A DNA stretch of 64,000 nt, from NCBI GenBank assembly GCA_019638595.1, contig JAHBTJ010000016.1, positions 110,832-174,831 on the forward strand, in the 5' to 3' direction. The notes beneath the pieces are model-generated. The model had not been told where the DNA came from. It saw only the letters and a list, made by a program, of their open reading frames with translations, and ran no database searches. Both the position numbers and the translations under genes were made by a program. The stretch comes from Chitinophagaceae bacterium. Its GTDB lineage: Bacteria > Bacteroidota > Bacteroidia > Chitinophagales > Chitinophagaceae. Position 1 is the stretch's first letter, and the number at the start of each line of letters is the position of its first letter. Shown in pieces: positions 1 through 63,143 of this stretch.

Positions 1-1020
1 ATCGGTGGTTTGGGTGTAGGCGCATCTTCTGTTACAGCGCCCATTTATATATCAGAAATATCGTCTGCCAAAAACCGTGGACGACTGGTGGCGCTTTTCC
101 AGTTTAATGTGGTAACGGGTATACTCATATCGTATTTATCCAACTATATTATTGGCGTTGCCGGCGGCGATCATTCCTGGCGGCTGATGCTCGGCATTAT
201 GGTGATCCCCTCATTGCTTTTCCTGGTATTGTTAAGATTTGTGCCCGAAAGCCCGCGCTGGCTGATACTGCACCATAAAAATATGGAAGATGCGAAAAAC
301 ACCTTACGCATTATTGATCCTGAAAAGTATGAAGCTGAAATTGCCTCCATTATTAAAACCAATGAAGAAAATAAGCATAAGCAGCAGGAAAAATTGTTTT
401 CGTCAAAATACAGGTTACCTATTTTTCTTGCAGTGGTATTTGCCATATTCAACCAGGTGTCGGGCATTAACGCCATTATATATTATGCCCCGCGCATTTT
501 TGAATCTTCCGGCCTCGCTACAGACTCATCACTGCTGTCAAGCGTGGCTATAGGATCAGTAAATCTTTTGTTCACTTTACTGGCAATAAGCTTAATTGAT
601 AAGTTCGGCAGGCGTAAGCTGATGCTCACCGGAACTATCGGGCTGATCGTTACACTTGGTATTGTGGCTTACCTGTTCATGCATCCCTCATCAAACCCTT
701 CTGCTATTGTTGTTTTACTGCTGGCGTATATAGCGTTCTTCGCTATGTCGCAGGGCGCATGTATATGGGTATTTATTTCTGAAATTTTTCCAAATACAGT
801 AAGGGCCAAAGGACAAACACTCGGCAGCCTCACCCATTGGGTGATGGCCGCTGTTATCACGTTCGTTTTTCCCGTGATCAGCGAGAACCTCGGCGAAGGC
901 ATTATCTTCTTTTTCTTTTGCTGCATGATGATACTGCAGTTAGGTTTCGTAATAAAATATATGCCGGAAACCAAAGGTAAGTCGCTCGAAGAGCTGGAAG
1001 CCAATCTTGTTGTACACTAA
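1..1020 (+). CDS. MFS sugar porter (5' end outside window)
   Basis: C-terminal part, about 339 residues, of a major facilitator sugar transporter; the reading frame is open from base 1, so the true start lies upstream. Seen: several hydrophobic helices, the sugar-porter signature PESPRWLI after transmembrane segment 6, a GRRKLML loop motif between segments 8 and 9, and the terminal PETKGKSLEELE motif. These mark the sugar porter family (XylE/GLUT-like), proton symporters of the inner membrane. Its stop lies 10 bases before the ATG of a fructokinase and upstream of SusCD and two GH32 genes, so fructose is the most likely substrate (inference from context). Glucose or xylose cannot be excluded from sequence alone. 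Confidence 0.9.
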   Translation: MGGLGVGASSVTAPIYISEISSAKNRGRLVALFQFNVVTGILISYLSNYIIGVAGGDHSWRLMLGIMVIPSLLFLVLLRFVPESPRWLILHHKNMEDAKNTLRIIDPEKYEAEIASIIKTNEENKHKQQEKLFSSKYRLPIFLAVVFAIFNQVSGINAIIYYAPRIFESSGLATDSSLLSSVAIGSVNLLFTLLAISLIDKFGRRKLMLTGTIGLIVTLGIVAYLFMHPSSNPSAIVVLLLAYIAFFAMSQGACIWVFISEIFPNTVRAKGQTLGSLTHWVMAAVITFVFPVISENLGEGIIFFFFCCMMILQLGFVIKYMPETKGKSLEELEANLVVH

Positions 1021-28974: not shown

Positions 28975-29073
28975 ATGTTGAAGAGCAGCATATCAAATAT
29001 TGTCAGCAGCACAGTCCTTGTGGTGGTTGTCATTATTATTCCTGCAACTCAGGGAGGTGTAATTTGTATATAA
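28975..29073 (+). CDS. ilv operon leader peptide (attenuator)
   Basis: A 32-residue ORF between a promoter and an intrinsic terminator, upstream of ilvE. It reads MLKSSISNIVSS, then TVLVVVVIII, then PATQGGVICI. Half of the residues are Leu, Val or Ile, and residues 14-22 are an unbroken Val-Leu-Val4-Ile3 run. This is the classical form of a branched-chain amino acid leader peptide, in which ribosome stalling on scarce Val/Leu/Ile-tRNA lets transcription continue. The product itself should have no function beyond its translation. Too short for ordinary gene calling; the codon content and position between promoter and terminator support it. Confidence 0.85.
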   Translation: MLKSSISNIVSSTVLVVVVIIIPATQGGVICI

Positions 29074-29094
29074 AATAAATATTGAAAAATATAT

Positions 29095-29128
29095 AAACCC
29101 GCCTCTCCGACAGGCGGGTTTTTTGTTT
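29095..29128 (+). terminator. ilv attenuator terminator
   Basis: Stem AAACCCGCCT (29095-29104) and AGGCGGGTTT (29112-29121), a perfect 10 bp, with a 7-nt loop and a following TTTGTTTT run. It lies 21 bases after the leader stop and 38 bases before ilvE. GGGAGG at 29052-29057 can pair with CCTCTCC at 29102-29108 (one wobble, one bulge), a candidate antiterminator that would break the stem. Confidence 0.85.
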
Positions 29129-55112: not shown

Positions 55113-56468
55113 TCAGATATCCTCCCCCTGTCCGAATGATTCGTTCAGGCGGGCTTCGGGGAGGCCGGGAGGGGCTGCCATTAAATACTCGCTCAGCAAT
55201 TCATATGCTGCATCCATTTCAATGCTATGTTTTTTAAGTGGTAATATTTGCCGGATAGCCTCCGGTACAGGAACCGCTTCATTAATAACAGGCTCTACCA
55301 CATCATAAAATTTTACAGGATGCGCTGTTTCAAGAAAAACCCCTTTATCGCCTGCATGTTCACCAAGATAGCGCTGCAAGGCAAGATAGCCTACCGCGCC
55401 ATGCGGATCGGTCAAATAGCCGGTTTCCTTTTTTACCTGTTGCAGCGTGGCTTTGGTTTCTTCATCAGTAATGGTATAGCCTGAGAGTATTTTTTTAAGA
55501 TCAATAAAATTATTATTGAAAAGCTCCAGCACCCTTACAAAATTGCTGGGGTTGCCTACATCCATTGCGTTGGATAAGGTGGCTACGGCAGGACGAACTT
55601 CATAGTTGCCGTTATCCAAAAACCTTGGCACTACATTATTGGCATTGCAGGCAGCTATGAAATGCTTTACGGGCAAACCGGAAATAAACGCCAGCATACC
55701 CGCACAGATATTACCAAAGTTCCCGCTTGGTACGCATATTACAGGTGGAGCATCTTTTTGCTGCCATTGCTTGTACGCGAAAAAATAATAAAACTGTTGC
55801 GGCAACCAACGGGCTACGTTTATGGAGTTGGCAGAAGTGAGGAATATTTTCTTTGTGAGCTCAGCGTCGGCAAAAGCCTGTTTCACCATTTGCTGACAGT
55901 CATCAAATGTTCCTTTTACTTCAATAGCTGTTATATTTTTCCCCAGCGTGGTCAACTGTTTTTCCTGTACCGAGCTCACCTTTCCCGAAGGATATAAGAT
56001 CACCACCTCTACTCCTTCCACACCATAGAATCCATTGGCTACGGCGCCGCCGGTATCGCCCGAAGTGGCTACCAGCACCGTTACTTTTTCTCTCTCCTTT
56101 TTAGCAAAATAACCCAGGCAACGGCTCATGAACCGGGCACCTACATCTTTAAACGCAAGGGTAGGTCCATGAAAAAGCTCAAGGGAATATATATCGTTTG
56201 TTAGCTTTACAAGCGGAATGGGAAAATCAATCGTTTCTTTCACAATGCCTCGTAAATCGGCTTCCGCAATATCTTCACCCACGTAAGGCCGTATCACGTC
56301 AAAAGCTATTTGCTCATTCGATTTTTCTTCAATGCTATCTATCCAGCTTTTATCGAGCTTTGGTAAAGATTTGGGGAAATACAAACCCTTATCAGGCGCC
56401 TGTCCTTTGATGGTGGCTTCTTTAAAGCTAACTTCAGGCGATTGGTTATTTAAGCTGTAGTATTTCAT
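55113..56468 (-). CDS. thrC: Threonine synthase
   Basis: 451-residue PLP enzyme converting O-phosphohomoserine to threonine. Seen: N-terminal MKYYSLNNQSPEVSFKEAT typical of the ThrC fold, the PLP Lys in ELFHGPTLAFKDVGARFMSR (about residues 102-121), ATSGDTGGAVANGF (about 134-147), CVPSGNFGNICAGM, and VATLSNAMDVGNPSNFVR. Length is normal. Last gene of the thrA-thrB-thrC run, 45 bases after thrB. Confidence 0.96.
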   Translation of the reverse strand: MKYYSLNNQSPEVSFKEATIKGQAPDKGLYFPKSLPKLDKSWIDSIEEKSNEQIAFDVIRPYVGEDIAEADLRGIVKETIDFPIPLVKLTNDIYSLELFHGPTLAFKDVGARFMSRCLGYFAKKEREKVTVLVATSGDTGGAVANGFYGVEGVEVVILYPSGKVSSVQEKQLTTLGKNITAIEVKGTFDDCQQMVKQAFADAELTKKIFLTSANSINVARWLPQQFYYFFAYKQWQQKDAPPVICVPSGNFGNICAGMLAFISGLPVKHFIAACNANNVVPRFLDNGNYEVRPAVATLSNAMDVGNPSNFVRVLELFNNNFIDLKKILSGYTITDEETKATLQQVKKETGYLTDPHGAVGYLALQRYLGEHAGDKGVFLETAHPVKFYDVVEPVINEAVPVPEAIRQILPLKKHSIEMDAAYELLSEYLMAAPPGLPEARLNESFGQGEDI

Positions 56469-56513: not shown

Positions 56514-57464
56514 TTATTTAACTATCTTAACCCCTTGCGTATTTACTGTTGTTACATAGGTATGATAAGCAATTCCCGTAGCCGCATATACATCCTTCAT
56601 GGCGTTTTCCACTGCCAGTGCCGTTGCTTCATCTTTGCTCAGCATAAATATGGAAGGTCCCGAACCGGATATACCGCCACCCAGGGCGCCCGCTTCCAGG
56701 CTTTTTGCCTTTACTTCAGCAAACGCGGGAATGAGTATACTTCTTACCGGCTCTATCAATACATCTTCCAGCGATCTGCCGATAAGCTCATAATCACTTT
56801 TTATTAAACCGGCTACCAGTCCCGCTATATTGCCCCATTGCCTGATGGCATCTTTCAGCAATATCTGCTTTTTTAGTATCTGCCTGGCATCTTCGGTACG
56901 CACTTCAATTTGCGGATGTACCACGGTTACATATAGCGGCGGGGAGGGTACACTGATGATATCAAGCGGCATAATACTTCTTATTAATGTAACGCCGCCC
57001 ATAATACAGGGTGTAATATTATCCGCATGTTTTACGCCCGATGCCAGCTTTTCACCAAACATCGCCATCTGCACAAGCTCATTATTATTGAATATATTAC
57101 CCAGCAAATGATTGGCTGCTACCACAGCACCCGCTGAGCTTGCAGCGCTTGAACCAACACCGCTTCCGGGCTTAATGCGTTTTTCAATGGTAATATCAAA
57201 GCCTGTTTTCCTGTGTAACCGTTCTATCATTTCCAGCAGGGCTACACCTGCAACATTTTTTTGCGGCTCCACCGGTAATCCATAGCTGTCTACATTATGT
57301 ATAACAACCGTAGGCTCTTCAATCAACTGTATGGTCATTATATCGTAAGGATCGTTCAATGCCAGCCCCAGTACATCAAATCCACATACCATGTTGGCCA
57401 CTGTACCCGGTGCATGTACGGTTACCGATTTCCCCCGGGCCTTATTTATTGCGTCGTCTAACAT
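56514..57464 (-). CDS. thrB: Homoserine kinase
   Basis: 316-residue GHMP-family kinase. Seen: N-terminal VTVHAPGTVANMVCGFDVLGLAL (about 14-36), the ATP motif IKPGSGVGSSAASSAGAVVAAN (about 96-117), and the C-terminal GALGGGISGSGPSIFML (about 269-285). Length is typical. It phosphorylates homoserine from ThrA for ThrC. The gap to thrA is 258 bases of repeat-like text, so thrA-thrB coupling may be looser than thrB-thrC. Confidence 0.95.
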   Translation of the reverse strand: MLDDAINKARGKSVTVHAPGTVANMVCGFDVLGLALNDPYDIMTIQLIEEPTVVIHNVDSYGLPVEPQKNVAGVALLEMIERLHRKTGFDITIEKRIKPGSGVGSSAASSAGAVVAANHLLGNIFNNNELVQMAMFGEKLASGVKHADNITPCIMGGVTLIRSIMPLDIISVPSPPLYVTVVHPQIEVRTEDARQILKKQILLKDAIRQWGNIAGLVAGLIKSDYELIGRSLEDVLIEPVRSILIPAFAEVKAKSLEAGALGGGISGSGPSIFMLSKDEATALAVENAMKDVYAATGIAYHTYVTTVNTQGVKIVK

Positions 57465-57722: not shown

Positions 57723-60167
57723 TCACTGCGCTGTGGCTCTTATTATATCCGCGAACACACCCGATGCGGTTACTTCCGCCCCGGCTCCGGCGCCTTTCAC
57801 TACCAATGGCTGCAGCGGGTAACGTTCTGTATAAAACAATACTACATTATCTTTTCCATATAAATGATACAGGTCATGCTCCGGCGCTATATGCTGCAAA
57901 CCTACAGACGCTTTGCCATTTTCATATTTTGCTACAAATTTCAGCTTACAGTTTTTCGCTACAGCTTCATCGTATAATTTTTTAAAATGCGCTTCCTGCT
58001 TTTTCATTTCTGCATAAAAAGCAGCTACATCGCCTTCCATACAACTGCCGGGTAAAAAACCGTTGCAGCTAATATCTTCCATTTCCAGTTGAGCACCCGA
58101 TTCACGCGCCAGGATCATGATCTTACGCATTACGTCCTTACCGCTCAGGTCGAGTCTTGGATCGGGTTCTGTATATCCTTCTTCCTGTGCCTGCTTTACC
58201 ACTTCCGCAAAAGTTTTTTCGCCGTTGTAATTGTTAAATACAAAGTTCAGGGTGCCGCTTAAAACCGCTTCAATACGATTGATCTTATCGCCGCTGCGCA
58301 TAAGATCGTTTAAAGTGCCGATTACAGGAAGCGCAGCGCCTACATTGGTTTCAAACAGGAACAGGCAATTATAGGAACGGGCCGTATCCTTCAACTTTTT
58401 ATAATAAACATAATTTGAAGATGCTGCTATTTTGTTGCAGGCTACCACCGATACGCTTTTTTGCAGCAACCGGTCGTAAACCGATGCTACGGAATCGCTG
58501 GCTGTGATGTCTACAAAAATAGAATTGCGTGAATTTTTGCTGAGGATGATGTTGACAAACTCATCTATGTTTGCAGACTCGCCTCCCTGCAGTTTTTCCT
58601 GCCAGTGGTTAAAATCAATTCCATTGTCATCAATGATCATTTTCCGGCTGTTGGCAAGTCCCACTACTTTCACGTTCAGGCGCAGGTGCTGACTTAACCA
58701 GCTCTGTTGCTGCTTTAATTGCTGCAGCAGCTTACTGCCTACGTTGCCGGTACCGGCAATAAAGAGGTTGATTTGCCGGTAAGTGGTTTCAAAAAATTCT
58801 TCGTGCAGGATATTGATGGCTTTTCTTACATCTTTGGTGGCTACTACCGCGGAAATATTTCTTTCCGACGATCCCTGGGCAATCGCACGCACATTTACAC
58901 CATTACGCCCTAATGCTCCAAACATTTTTCCGCTGATACCCGGGTGACTTTTCATGTTTTCGCCCACCAGCGCCACAATGGAAAGATCTTTTTCGATGGC
59001 GAGGGGTTGTACTCTTTCCATGGTGATCTCATCGGCGAAGGTATGGTCTACAACTTCTTTGGCTTTTTGCGCGAAAGGAGTTTCTACGCCTACACATATA
59101 GAGTGTTCCGACGATCCCTGTGTAATGAGGATAACATTGATCTGCGCCTGTGAAAGGGCTTCGAACAAACGTCTTGAAAAACCAGGCACACCTACCATGC
59201 CGCTTCCTTCCAGGCTCAGCAGCGTTATATTGCTGATACTGGAAATACCCCTGATAGCGTTACCGTTAGGGGCAGCCGTTTTTCCTATAACGGTTCCGTG
59301 GTCGTTGGGAGCAAAAGTGTTTTTGATCACTACCGGGATGCCTTTGCCTAATACCGGTTGTATGGTGGGCGGGTACAATACTTTGGCGCCAAAGTGAGAA
59401 AGCTCCATGGCTTCCTGGTACGATATGGAAGAAATAACTTTAGCTCCGCTTACCCAGCGCGGGTCTGCAGTCATCATACCCGATACGTCTGTCCATATTT
59501 CTAGTTGCTTCGCATTCACAGCCGCGGCCAGTATAGCGGCGGTATAATCCGATCCGCCCCTGCCCAACGTAGTTGTTTCGTTATTGTCGCTTGCGGCTAT
59601 AAAGCCCGGAATAATAACGAGCTGCTCTTTCCATGTAGGTATAAAATCATGAATAAGCGCTTTTGTTGCTGCGGCATTTACAACAGCATTCCCAAAGTTG
59701 GTATTGGTCTGGATGAGCTTCCGGGTGTCTTTCCAAAGCGTTTCAATACCCGCGTTGTTAAAAGCGGCGGCAATCATTTGCGATGACAACAGTTCTCCAA
59801 AGCTTACAATGCGGTCTTTAGTGCGCGAAGAAAGCTCACCCAGCAGGAAAACCCCGTTACAAACATCTTCAATTTCATTGCACATTTTTTTTACCAGGCT
59901 CAGTACGCTGCTTTGATGTTGTACCGGGATCAGTTGCTTTACCGTATCCAGGTGCCTTTGTTCAATGCGTAACAGCTCTTCCTTAAACAGCTCGTTTGAC
60001 TGTGCCGCCAGTTGGCCTGCATTTAACAAAGCGTCTGTGGTGCCTCCCATTGCCGATACTACCACAATGGTTTTCTCCTTTTCCAGCCGCTCTTTTACGA
60101 TCCCGATCACCTTTTTTATATTATCAGCGCTTCCAACTGAAGTACCGCCGAATTTCAACACCTGCAT
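57723..60167 (-). CDS. thrA: Bifunctional aspartokinase / homoserine dehydrogenase
   Basis: 814-residue fusion catalysing the first and third steps of the threonine branch. Seen: aspartokinase start MQVLKFGGTSVGSADNIKK with GRGGSDYTAAILAAAV (about 215-230), a pair of ACT domains (about 310-460), then the homoserine dehydrogenase Rossmann motif LFIAGTGNVGSKLLQQL (about 464-480), GALPVIGTLNDLMRSGDKI and the substrate motif GYTEPDPRLDLSGKDVMRK (about 682-700). Length matches E. coli ThrA (820). The frame opens 14 codons earlier, but ATG 60167 gives the canonical start. A Thr/Ile-rich leader ORF precedes it on the same strand. Confidence 0.96.
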   Translation of the reverse strand: MQVLKFGGTSVGSADNIKKVIGIVKERLEKEKTIVVVSAMGGTTDALLNAGQLAAQSNELFKEELLRIEQRHLDTVKQLIPVQHQSSVLSLVKKMCNEIEDVCNGVFLLGELSSRTKDRIVSFGELLSSQMIAAAFNNAGIETLWKDTRKLIQTNTNFGNAVVNAAATKALIHDFIPTWKEQLVIIPGFIAASDNNETTTLGRGGSDYTAAILAAAVNAKQLEIWTDVSGMMTADPRWVSGAKVISSISYQEAMELSHFGAKVLYPPTIQPVLGKGIPVVIKNTFAPNDHGTVIGKTAAPNGNAIRGISSISNITLLSLEGSGMVGVPGFSRRLFEALSQAQINVILITQGSSEHSICVGVETPFAQKAKEVVDHTFADEITMERVQPLAIEKDLSIVALVGENMKSHPGISGKMFGALGRNGVNVRAIAQGSSERNISAVVATKDVRKAINILHEEFFETTYRQINLFIAGTGNVGSKLLQQLKQQQSWLSQHLRLNVKVVGLANSRKMIIDDNGIDFNHWQEKLQGGESANIDEFVNIILSKNSRNSIFVDITASDSVASVYDRLLQKSVSVVACNKIAASSNYVYYKKLKDTARSYNCLFLFETNVGAALPVIGTLNDLMRSGDKINRIEAVLSGTLNFVFNNYNGEKTFAEVVKQAQEEGYTEPDPRLDLSGKDVMRKIMILARESGAQLEMEDISCNGFLPGSCMEGDVAAFYAEMKKQEAHFKKLYDEAVAKNCKLKFVAKYENGKASVGLQHIAPEHDLYHLYGKDNVVLFYTERYPLQPLVVKGAGAGAEVTASGVFADIIRATAQ

Positions 60168-60208
60168 ATTTTGTTTTTTTGAACTAGAAGTTATTAGATA
60201 ATGATCCA

Positions 60209-60228
60209 ATTCATCCTGCCTGATGAAT
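60209..60228 (-). other. Hairpin between the thr leader and thrA
   Basis: ATTCATC (60209-60215) and GATGAAT (60222-60228), 7-bp stem, 6-nt loop. No U-run follows on the RNA. It can compete with pairing of the upstream CATCC (near 60247) to GGATG, so it is a candidate switching hairpin of the thr leader. Confidence 0.5.
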
Positions 60229-60265
60229 GTAGCTGATTGCCCATGGGATGATATGCATAACGATT

Positions 60266-60281
60266 ACCCTCACACGAGGGT
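60266..60281 (-). other. Hairpin over the stop codon of the thr leader
   Basis: ACCCTC/GAGGGT, 6-bp stem with a 4-nt loop, spanning the last codons and TGA of the leader ORF (60270-60272). Ribosome position on the preceding Thr run would decide whether it forms. Confidence 0.5.
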
Positions 60282-60371
60282 TGTAATGGTTGTTGTGGTA
60301 ATGATGGTACTTATTACAGCGGTATTTGCGGTAATAAAGGCCGATGATGTATTTGAATATAGCAGTACCAT
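60270..60371 (-). CDS. thr operon leader peptide (thrL-like)
   Basis: 33-residue ORF on the minus strand, 102 bases upstream of thrA. It begins MVLLYSNTSSAFITANTAV and ends ISTIITTTTITTLV: 10 Thr and 5 Ile in all, densest at the end. The terminal run closely resembles the Thr/Ile run of the enterobacterial thrL peptide, a known attenuator of thrABC. It lies between a promoter of the TTTG-N19-TAnnTTCG type and foldable RNA. No U-tract terminator follows, so the exact mechanism is open. The plus strand of the same DNA gives a Val-rich ORF, which is a shadow. Confidence 0.82.
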   Translation of the reverse strand: MVLLYSNTSSAFITANTAVISTIITTTTITTLV

Positions 60372-60388
60372 TTCACTTATGATGGCGC

Positions 60389-60419
60389 CGAAGGTAAAAC
60401 AGAATTAATCAATTACAAA
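60389..60419 (-). promoter_or_regulatory. Promoter of the thr leader/operon
   Basis: Minus strand TTTG at 60419-60416, 19-nt spacer, TACCTTCG at 60396-60389 (one mismatch to TAnnTTTG). The leader ATG is 17 nt downstream. Same spacing and -7 form as the ilv leader promoter. Confidence 0.6.
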
Positions 60420-60563
60420 TAAAATATTAAAAAACCTTCGGTACATCCTTTTTTTTTAACTAATTTCATGCGCTCATTTATCGCTTGCTTGTCCAAATTA
60501 AATACACTGCTTTAGGGCGGTAGGCTAATAGTTCATCAAATCAATACTTAGTAATATCAACTC

Positions 60564-63143
60564 ATGGCAAGCTTATCAACGGCATCGCTAACGCAATTCC
60601 AAAACCTGGTAGGGCGTAAATTTCAATTATACAACAGTCTTTTTACTTCCCTGCCTTTTCATCGTATTGAGAAAACGGGCATTCTTTTATCGCTGCTGCT
60701 AAGCTATTGCGAAGAAGGATATGCCAATGAGCAAAGCCCGTCTCAAATCATTGATGGCTTTTTCAGTAAACATACCTCTTTTACCGAGAAGGAAGAAAAG
60801 CTGGATTTATTGTTCCGGTTCGTGCAGTATGCGGAGCGCCAGGTGGTACTTTTCGATGCCCTGGAAGATGCGGCTTTTACTACTGTAAATGATATGAATG
60901 GCCCGGGTACCTTAAAAAGCCTGCAGTCGGAAGTAATACAGTTCGGAAAAGAAAAGGAGCTGCAGCAAAAGGCCGAAACCTTTAATATACGCCTTGTGCT
61001 TACGGCGCATCCCACGCAGTTTTACCCGGGAGCGGTGCTGGGCATTATACATGATTTAACAAGGGCCATTGCTGAAAATAATATTAACCAGATCAACATG
61101 TACCTGCAGCAATTGGGGAAAACGCCCTTTTTCAAGCAACAAAAGCCCACGCCTTTTGATGAGGCGGTAAGCCTGATCTGGTACCTGGAAAATGTATTTT
61201 ATCCCGCGGCGGGCCGGATCATAGCCAATATTAAAACCAATATGCCCGAAGTGGTGTCGCCGTCTAACCCTATTATACGCATGGGCTTTTGGCCGGGAGG
61301 CGACAGGGATGGGAACCCGTTCGTAAAATCCGCCACTACGCAAAAAGTAGCGGGCGCCTTGCGCGAAAGTATCCTGAAATCGTACTACCTGGATGTAAGG
61401 CGATTAAAACGCCGGCTTACATTCAAAGGCGTTGATACTCCCTTGCAGGAACTGGAGACCAAGCTGTACAATAATGTTTTTATACCTGGTCATATCAGCG
61501 ATCTTACCAAGGAAGAAATACTCGATACCCTCAATGGCATCCGGGAAACATTGCTCGTTCAGCATAATGGCTTATTTGTTGAACTGGTGGAGAACCTGAT
61601 CAATAAAGTAGAGGTATTCGGGTTGTTTTTCGCATCGCTTGATCTGCGCCAGGATAGCAGCGTACATACTAAAATACTGGATGAAATTGCCGCTAAAGCC
61701 AGTGTATTGCCTGCAAACTATACATCGCTGTCTCCGTCCGAAAAGATCGGGGCGCTGATAAATGTATCAGGAACCGCCGATCCGGAAATACTTACCGATG
61801 AAGTGCATAAGGATACGCTTTGCGTAATGCAGGCTTTAAAGCAAATACAGGCAGCCAATGGAGTGGAGGGCAGCGACCGTTATATTATCAGCCAGTGTAA
61901 CAGCGCGCTGAGCGCTATTGAAGTGTATGGTCTTTTTTTAATGAGCGGATGGAAAGCTGAAGAGCTTACCGTGGATATTGTTCCTTTGTTTGAAACAATA
62001 GATGACCTGGAGCACGCCGCTTCTATTATGGAAGAGCTGTATACCCTGCCCCAATACAGGCAACACCTGGAGCGCAGAAAGAACAAACAGACGATTATGC
62101 TTGGTTTTTCGGATGGTACCAAAGATGGCGGCTACCTGATGGCAAACTGGAGCATTTATAAGGCGAAGGAAGCGCTTACTGCCATATCAAGACAGTATGG
62201 TATAAATGTAGTGTTTTTTGATGGCAGGGGAGGTCCCCCGGCACGGGGTGGCGGTAAAACGCATAAGTTTTACGCGTCGCTGGGCAAGAATATCGCTAAC
62301 GAAGAAATTCAGCTCACCATACAGGGACAAACCGTGAGCTCTAATTTCGGCACTATAGATTCTGCCCAGTTCAATATTGAGCAACTGATTAACGCGGGCA
62401 TTTCCAACGATCTTTTTGCATCGCAGAAGCTGGCGCTTAAGGACGCAGAAAAGGAATTGATACAGCAATTGTCTGAAATAAGTCTTGACTCCTATATAGA
62501 TCTGAAAAATCATCCTTATTTCCTGGAATACCTGGGGCATGCAAGTCCGTTACGGTTTTATGCGGAAACCAATATAGGCAGCCGCCCTGCCAAAAGAGGC
62601 GCGTCGGGTAAGCTTTCCCTGAAGGATCTTCGTGCTATTCCTTTTGTAGGCGCCTGGAGCCAGTTGAAGCAGAATGTAACGGGTTATTATGGCGTGGGCA
62701 CTGCGTTTAAAGCGATGGAGGAGCAGGGAAGATGGGAAGAGGTTAAACATTTATACGATCACTCCACCTTTTTTAAAACATTGGTAGGCAACTGCGAGAT
62801 GTCTATGAAGAAGTGTTTCTTCCCGATGACAACATTTCTCTCCAGGCATCCGCTGTATGGCGAGCTGTGGAATAAAATTTATAATGAATACGAGCTTACC
62901 AAAAAGTATATTTTTAAATTAACCGGTAAAAATGAATTAATGGCCGATTACCCTGTTGAACAATTATCGGTACAAATGCGGGAACGTATTGTATTACCGC
63001 TTGTTACTATACAGCAGTATGCCATTACAAAAGTGCGTGAAATGGAAGAAGCGAAGCTTCAGTCTCCCCATAAAAAAACGTATGAAAAGCTGGTGATGCG
63101 CTGTTCATTCGGTATTATTAATGCGGGAAGAAATTCGGCGTAG
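60564..63143 (+). CDS. ppc: Phosphoenolpyruvate carboxylase
   Basis: 859-residue enzyme making oxaloacetate from PEP and bicarbonate, the aspartate precursor. Seen: catalytic His in LTAHPTQFYPG (about 146-156), GFWPGGDRDGNPFV (about 243-256), LGFSDGTKDGGYLMANW (about 513-529), FFDGRGGPPARGGGKTHKF (about 552-570) and the C-terminal RCSFGIINAGRNSA. The second and third motifs differ from the enterobacterial forms (SDSGKDAGR and FHGRGGTVGRGGG), a divergence that appears to be a Bacteroidota-type variant. Slightly shorter than the E. coli enzyme (883). Divergent from the thr operon with 396 bases to the thrA start. Confidence 0.94.
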   Translation: MASLSTASLTQFQNLVGRKFQLYNSLFTSLPFHRIEKTGILLSLLLSYCEEGYANEQSPSQIIDGFFSKHTSFTEKEEKLDLLFRFVQYAERQVVLFDALEDAAFTTVNDMNGPGTLKSLQSEVIQFGKEKELQQKAETFNIRLVLTAHPTQFYPGAVLGIIHDLTRAIAENNINQINMYLQQLGKTPFFKQQKPTPFDEAVSLIWYLENVFYPAAGRIIANIKTNMPEVVSPSNPIIRMGFWPGGDRDGNPFVKSATTQKVAGALRESILKSYYLDVRRLKRRLTFKGVDTPLQELETKLYNNVFIPGHISDLTKEEILDTLNGIRETLLVQHNGLFVELVENLINKVEVFGLFFASLDLRQDSSVHTKILDEIAAKASVLPANYTSLSPSEKIGALINVSGTADPEILTDEVHKDTLCVMQALKQIQAANGVEGSDRYIISQCNSALSAIEVYGLFLMSGWKAEELTVDIVPLFETIDDLEHAASIMEELYTLPQYRQHLERRKNKQTIMLGFSDGTKDGGYLMANWSIYKAKEALTAISRQYGINVVFFDGRGGPPARGGGKTHKFYASLGKNIANEEIQLTIQGQTVSSNFGTIDSAQFNIEQLINAGISNDLFASQKLALKDAEKELIQQLSEISLDSYIDLKNHPYFLEYLGHASPLRFYAETNIGSRPAKRGASGKLSLKDLRAIPFVGAWSQLKQNVTGYYGVGTAFKAMEEQGRWEEVKHLYDHSTFFKTLVGNCEMSMKKCFFPMTTFLSRHPLYGELWNKIYNEYELTKKYIFKLTGKNELMADYPVEQLSVQMRERIVLPLVTIQQYAITKVREMEEAKLQSPHKKTYEKLVMRCSFGIINAGRNSA

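Follow-up and report, generated by a model that had tools for sequence, protein, structure and literature searches.

How can a leader peptide gene control the operon behind it when no terminator is found between the two? The question is raised by a locus in a 64,000-nucleotide (nt) stretch of a Chitinophagaceae bacterium genome (assembly GCA_019638595.1, contig JAHBTJ010000016.1), hereafter the window, in which a short open reading frame (ORF) ending in a run of Thr and Ile codons stands before the threonine operon thrABC on the minus strand. An earlier account made from the letters alone (the sequence-only reading) had described this ORF as a thrL-like leader before thrA without a U-run terminator, and that description has held up: the Thr/Ile run, the hairpin at the leader stop codon and the position before the operon are conserved in the family and beyond it. 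With a probability of roughly 85%, we consider that the leader would act as a Thr/Ile-responsive, ribosome-mediated attenuator of thrABC, and we infer that the response is to threonine. The readout does not appear to be a canonical intrinsic terminator, and is perhaps a hairpin-stabilized pause combined with the termination factor Rho.

Two features by which an amino-acid attenuator is recognized are found here: a biosynthetic operon (thrABC) is preceded by a short ORF in which codons for its end product abound, and an RNA hairpin, H1, overlaps the leader stop region. The run that closes the ORF contains seven Thr codons, and the leader stop lies 102 nt from thrA. The sequence-only reading had also placed a promoter-like TTTG-N19-TACCTTCG before the ORF, with 17 nt separating TACCTTCG from the start of a 33-codon frame, and these coordinates are correct on the minus strand (Table 1). 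By its consensus this is a promoter-like site of the Bacteroidota type; sites scoring at least 9 were found in 28 of 107 relatives, compared with 5.0% of shuffles. At 33 codons, the leader gene is short enough for a gene finder to pass over it.

The leader is widespread in the family. We found thrA in 103 of the 147 family genomes, and assembled 83 upstream regions for which the gene start was included and identity was at least 45% across the first 300 residues; nine loci below 45% identity were skipped, among them two paralogues in the window's own genome (L002 and L004). Counted in stretches of 12 codons close to where an ORF ends, at least five Thr codons are present in 66 of these 83 upstreams (1.14% of shuffles), at least six in 53 (0.06%), and at least seven in 34 (0.00% of 1660 dinucleotide shuffles). 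Seventeen upstreams fall below the five-Thr threshold, and 13 of them still show a leader by eye: it lies farther upstream, beyond the 260 nt scanned, in L127, L130 and L134, and has three or four Thr codons in ten. The upstream of L117 is truncated by a contig end. Both other genomes of the same genus in the family set (L006 and L007) carry the leader. Cultured relatives that have the element include Paraflavitalea pollutisoli (L041), Pseudoflavitalea rhizosphaerae (L053) and Flavihumibacter profundi (L063).

The sequence-only reading had suggested as a check that the Thr/Ile codons should be kept while their neighbors drift. This is the case for the window and L035, whose thrA genes are 90% identical: the last 12 codons give the identical peptide TIITTTTITTLV with three third-position changes only, and the N-terminal half of the leader peptide has diverged. 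The difference is smaller when 11 close pairs are taken together, DNA identity being 97% in the run, 91% in the part before it, 94% from H1 to the downstream hairpin H2, and 91% in the spacer before thrA. Beyond the window/L035 pair, support for selection at the codon level is therefore to be called modest. Within 12 genomes, for each of which 150 first-look candidates were scored, our model R2 had a single strong match in 11, each time at the thrA leader, with E values of 1.6e-19 to 1.0e-7; six of these 11 had supplied sequences to the model and five had not. The remaining matches elsewhere in the 12 genomes were all at E 0.005 or weaker.

Apart from this, the window's own genome contains a second thrA start (L003, at the end of contig C19), which has its own Thr leader and is cut at the contig end. 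The leader peptide of L003 is the same as that of L035. L003 may come from a contaminating close relative; the assembly lists 1.61% contamination.

Conservation around the leader stop was analyzed in a set of relatives aligned at the RNA level. From 149 distinct upstreams, 124 passed a filter based on Thr codons, a CC..GG dyad and a downstream box (consensus CATATYAYC), and these were reduced to 107 by removing near-identical rows and, by hand, those with a misplaced-looking box or hairpin (L015, L044, L025, L028, L089, L100, L112, L163 and L124). It should be noted that the presence of box and dyad in this set is not independent evidence, because both had been used for filtering and a GG motif had a part in the choice of the box, and that the box's own conservation does not count independently because it served as the alignment anchor. 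What does count is covariation, the spread of spacings and a second copy of the box. The hairpin that the sequence-only reading had drawn over the leader stop codon is indeed there, and H1 is found in 107 of 107 aligned relatives (the dyad being an entry criterion) in 65 distinct sequences, with variants such as ACAACCC-GTTAA-GGGTTGT, ACAATCCGC-TAA-GCGGATTGT and ACTCCGC-AGTA-GCGGAGT. Its arms covary strongly (native versus swapped arms, z score -16.1), and its folding energy is well below that of shuffles (mean z -3.16). The box starts 6-10 nt past H1 in 105 of the 107 relatives. Many relatives have a second CATATYAY copy in the early part of the leader ORF, at roughly -65 to -138 relative to the box; the copy is exact in 40 of 107 against 2.6 expected, and when one mismatch is allowed the count is 77, where 32.3 would be expected. 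The idea that the box region encodes a second ORF was rejected, the spacing between the box and the GGGC of H2 shifting by a single base between L009 and L038.

Two further hairpins follow the box. H2, which is absent from the list of the sequence-only reading, corresponds to a motif GG(G)C..GCY present in 90 of the 107 relatives, compared with 5% of mononucleotide shuffles, and its loop-closing pair covaries, being complementary in 61 of the 90 against 41 +/- 4. H3 was known from the sequence-only reading, which had it alternate with an upstream CATCC. The hairpin itself is present, with a swap test z of -4.1 and a hairpin score of 10.03 against 8.79 +/- 0.27 in shuffles, but the alternation is not conserved: in a swap test on up to 105 relatives it lay outside the nine best of 105 window pairs. 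In the swap tests, which covered 325 and 639 window pairs, each pair was swapped 12 times, and because the swaps are few and the pairs many, a single z near -3 means little.

Table 1. Positions of the leader elements and operon genes in the window.
Feature	Sequence or product	Position	Strand	Details
Promoter-like site	TTTG-N19-TACCTTCG	60389..60419	-	Exact; TTTG 60419-60416, TACCTTCG 60396-60389; score 10/10
Leader ORF	MVLLYSNTSSAFITANTAVISTIITTTTITTLV, ending in STIITTTTITTLV	60270..60371	-	33 codons; ATG 60371, TGA 60272-60270
P1	ATGGTAC (60371-60365) with GTACCAT (60310-60304)	60304..60371	-	Leader start with start of Thr run; encloses H0
H0	TTATTAC (60337-60331)/GTAATAA (60317-60311)	60311..60337	-	Hairpin inside ORF; minimum-energy fold
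Thr/Ile codon run	TIITTTTITTLV	60273..60308	-	Final 12 codons of leader ORF
H1	ACCCTC-GTGT-GAGGGT	60266..60281	-	Around leader stop codon
Box	CATATCATC	60247..60255	-	10 nt past H1
H2	GGGC-loop-GCT	60231..60242	-	Small hairpin
H3	ATTCATC-AGGCAG-GATGAAT	60209..60228	-	Sequence varies between relatives
thrA	Bifunctional aspartate kinase/homoserine dehydrogenase I	57723..60167	-	NCBIfam NF006959, 1031.8 bits, cut-off 726; ATG 60167
thrB	Homoserine kinase	56514..57464	-	NCBIfam NF002288 and TIGR00191
thrC	Threonine synthase	55113..56468	-	NCBIfam TIGR00260

A terminator of the usual kind is what this locus does not seem to have. A pattern scan of 59900-60600 detected no U-run terminator, and a stricter test (stem of at least six pairs, at least three GC pairs, at least six T in eight) was passed by only 5 of 123 thr leaders, every time via H1 and never via H2 or H3. 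The same genome uses terminators at other amino-acid operons. Within the window, an ilv leader, MLKSSISNIVSSTVLVVVVIIIPATQGGVICI, lies at 28975-29073 (+) before an ilvE-type gene and is followed by a 10-base-pair (bp) hairpin with a U run at 29095-29121 (+) that was called by the program. In all six genomes analyzed, hisG is preceded by a His-rich leader (L280-L285; MITNTHHHHHYLPNR in the window's own genome) and trpE by a leader with the motif WWW or WWWH (L286-L291; MKNSANQYWWWHTNSYRGL in the own genome), each with a U-run terminator by eye; ilvD is directly preceded by an Ile/Val-rich leader in two of six genomes (L277 and L279). The own-genome ilv, his and trp leaders resemble the thr leader in encoding peptides rich in the end product of the operon, and differ from it in having U-run terminators (by program for ilv, by eye for his and trp). 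As textbook attenuation is present at ilv, his and trp in this genome, it is in its downstream part that the thr leader departs. A terminator-free version for thr thus stands beside textbook U-run attenuators in one genome, so that how attenuation works without a terminator can be asked directly. Two details were seen by eye in these other leaders: in the ilv attenuator (28975-29125, +) the leader GGAGGUG can pair with the terminator CGCCUCU, and in the his leader of L281 CATATTAT stands just before the terminator.

The mechanism that we propose would work as follows. When charged tRNA-Thr or tRNA-Ile is scarce, the leading ribosome would stall in the Thr/Ile run and H1 would stay folded. When the charged tRNAs are plentiful, the ribosome would reach the stop codon inside H1, hold H1 open and then depart. 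H1 and the box, which starts 6-10 nt farther on, are positioned like a hairpin-stabilized pause site of RNA polymerase, their spacing resembling that of hairpin-stabilized pauses, and the position of the ribosome would decide whether the polymerase enters thrA or is made to terminate, with Rho as the most likely agent. Rho is named as the likeliest terminating agent because no U-run terminator was found, and a pause at H1 and the box is favored because neither terminator nor antiterminator was found while H1 and the spacing of the box are kept. The pause and Rho steps are the least certain of the mechanism, and we propose them tentatively, at somewhat less than even odds. The CAUAUYAYC box and H2 form a defined target for experiments on pausing and Rho.

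Several observations weigh against reading the locus as an attenuator of this kind. No covarying antiterminator, such as a classical attenuator switch would have, was detected among the 107 sequences (H1 loop plus 3' arm versus H2, z +0.5; versus H3, z 0.0). By folding energy, H2 is no more stable than shuffles. A C-rich, G-poor stretch near the leader stop is compatible with Rho loading but would equally follow from the Thr codons. By eye, the leader is absent in L146, L149 and L164, 3 of the 82 informative family upstreams, and none of the five screened regions of family f2 has it. Among the 132 run codons of the 11 close pairs, 4 changes are non-synonymous and 7 synonymous; in the unfiltered 19 pairs, some with shifted runs, the numbers are 53 and 21. 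Finally, R2 scores the window's own leader at only E 0.018.

How else could the locus work? The alternative that survives best is an attenuator comparable to tna and mgtL, two leader switches that depend on Rho; in it, a stalled ribosome would shield the C-rich Thr run and, once it has left, Rho would load and stop a polymerase paused behind H1 or H2. The failure to find an intrinsic terminator, both in the window scan and in all but five of the leaders tested, speaks for it, as does the composition of 54 nt near the leader stop (29% C and 12% G, compared with 18% and 20% in the background), although this is not diagnostic, the richness in C following from the Thr codons. Rho is reported to be active in Bacteroides thetaiotaomicron (PMC13269538), and we regard this alternative as a real possibility that is nonetheless more likely to be wrong than right.

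Less likely, in our judgment, is a classical attenuator whose intrinsic terminator is weak and degenerate, consisting of H2 with a GUUUUU-like stretch or H3 with a U-enriched tail, the 3' arm of H1 being the antiterminator. The his leaders of these genomes, read by eye, have GGGCUUAC or AGGCUUAC as a terminator arm in the equivalent position; T reaches 41-54% at five positions past H2, mean T past the 19 best H3 is about 0.46 against 0.35 in the background, and in L030 a G and six U come after an H2 of 5 bp. Pairing between H1 and H2 is good in single species (-11.3 kcal/mol in L041 and L012). The H1 3' arm with H2 was nevertheless rejected as an antiterminator, as this pairing does not covary; moreover, the few leaders passing the terminator test did so via H1, and H2 is no more stable than shuffles.

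Translational control, in which structure at the thrA start would tie thrA translation to that of the leader, had been raised as a possible mechanism in the sequence-only reading and has some local support: the box (GCATAT, 60256-60251) and the thrA start (ATATGC, 60169-60164) are base-paired when the window's sequence is folded to its minimum energy, and covariation between the box region (-16..1) and that start is weak (z -3.1, 0.45 kcal/mol). As a general mechanism this CAUAU/AUAUG pairing was rejected, since a matching ATATG start is present in only 36 of the 124 relatives and the box is kept regardless. Swap tests over the relatives identified no conserved pairing partner of the box, the best z within -50..+69 of the thrA start is -1.5, and the leader stop is 102 nt away from thrA, which makes this explanation rather improbable. 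Any single short ORF could arise by chance, but a functionless low-complexity ACN/ATN run can hardly account for runs of seven or more Thr codons that no shuffle reproduced, for a covarying hairpin and for a near-fixed spacing, and we regard it as very unlikely.

If the leader is a ribosome-mediated attenuator, how far does it extend? A survey of the phylum detected thrA in 154 of its 198 genomes, and from these we chose by hand 69 upstreams of 20 families for screening with a threshold of at least four Thr and at least seven Thr plus Ile in 12 codons, which misses some leaders. A leader was found in 12 of 16 upstreams of family f5 (11 with the box), in the single one of f4 (with the box), in 6 of 12 of f22, which belongs to another class (all six with the box), in 5 of 5 of f3 (none with the box), in 6 of 6 of f8 (one with a box-like match) and in three of the four from the family of the window itself (two with the box); the other families gave none in 25 (f2 0/5, f9 0/2, others 0/18). 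Leaders were recognized by eye in L206, L209 and L229, and are present too at named Flavobacteriaceae and Chryseobacterium loci. Judged from these sequences, the thr leader is found in other families and in a second class of the phylum. This raises the prospect of a distinct and old class of attenuator in at least two classes, in which a ribosome on Thr/Ile codons would control H1 and the CAUAUYAYC box, and thereby Rho, with neither an intrinsic terminator nor an antiterminator; we consider this version doubtful for now.

Some thr leaders of the phylum do have a U-run terminator. Those of f3 (L239-L243) and of L209 in f9 resemble the window's in being Thr/Ile leaders before relatives of thrA. 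The f3 leaders differ from it in lacking the box and in having a hairpin with a U run in 5 of 5 cases, along with a complementary leader segment by eye. L209, which is below the survey threshold and was not called in the terminator test, differs by eye only, in having a terminator and a region 2/region 3 pairing: the 3' arm of its stop hairpin, CGGGCTGC, matches GCAGCCCG, and there is a long hairpin with TTTTT.

Leader-peptide attenuation is textbook knowledge for Proteobacteria, and the enterobacterial thr attenuator thrL (Rfam Thr_leader) is the obvious counterpart. Like the element described here, thrL is a short leader peptide gene rich in Thr and Ile codons directly before thrA of thrABC. 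The window's leader is unlike it in that no U-run terminator and no covarying antiterminator were found, in having the conserved box and H2 in addition, and in that the leader start pairs with the Thr codons. The Rfam models Thr_leader and Bacteroid-trp (RF01692) had no match in the window at the gathering cut-off, or in 60100-60500 up to E 10; no Rfam family in the window matched the box and H2, and an NCBIfam search with three leader peptides returned nothing relevant. Among the literature matches listed, none dealt with a thr leader of Bacteroidota, most subscription papers lying outside the search. Vitreschak in 2004 is reported to mention Bacteroidetes, and a thr leader may have been described earlier in that group. 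Bacteroid-trp RNA, a proposed cis-regulator (PMC2864571, PMC6414381), resembles the thr leader in that it, too, is a leader element standing before an amino-acid operon of Bacteroidota, and differs from it in concerning tryptophan and in the absence of a match of its model in the window. For Flavobacterium psychrophilum, amino-acid operons have been reported to show strong clues that they are attenuated through leader peptides (PMC9723704); of the conserved 5' elements that lack Rfam hits, section 19 of that paper gives pheA and hisG by name and does not mention thr.

The leader ORF itself also appears to be structured. The hairpin H0 gave a swap test z of -5.9 and is lower in energy than its shuffles (paired t -14.1). 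It is enclosed by P1, for which 60370-60365 are paired with 60305-60310 in the minimum-energy fold of the window and the swap test z is about -4. A separate swap signal, which links the Thr run of the relatives to thrA bases 46-63 (z -3.6, 0.5 kcal/mol), is possibly due to chance among 414 window pairs. Taken together, P1 and H0 are more stable than shuffles across the 107 sequences (paired t -10.6).

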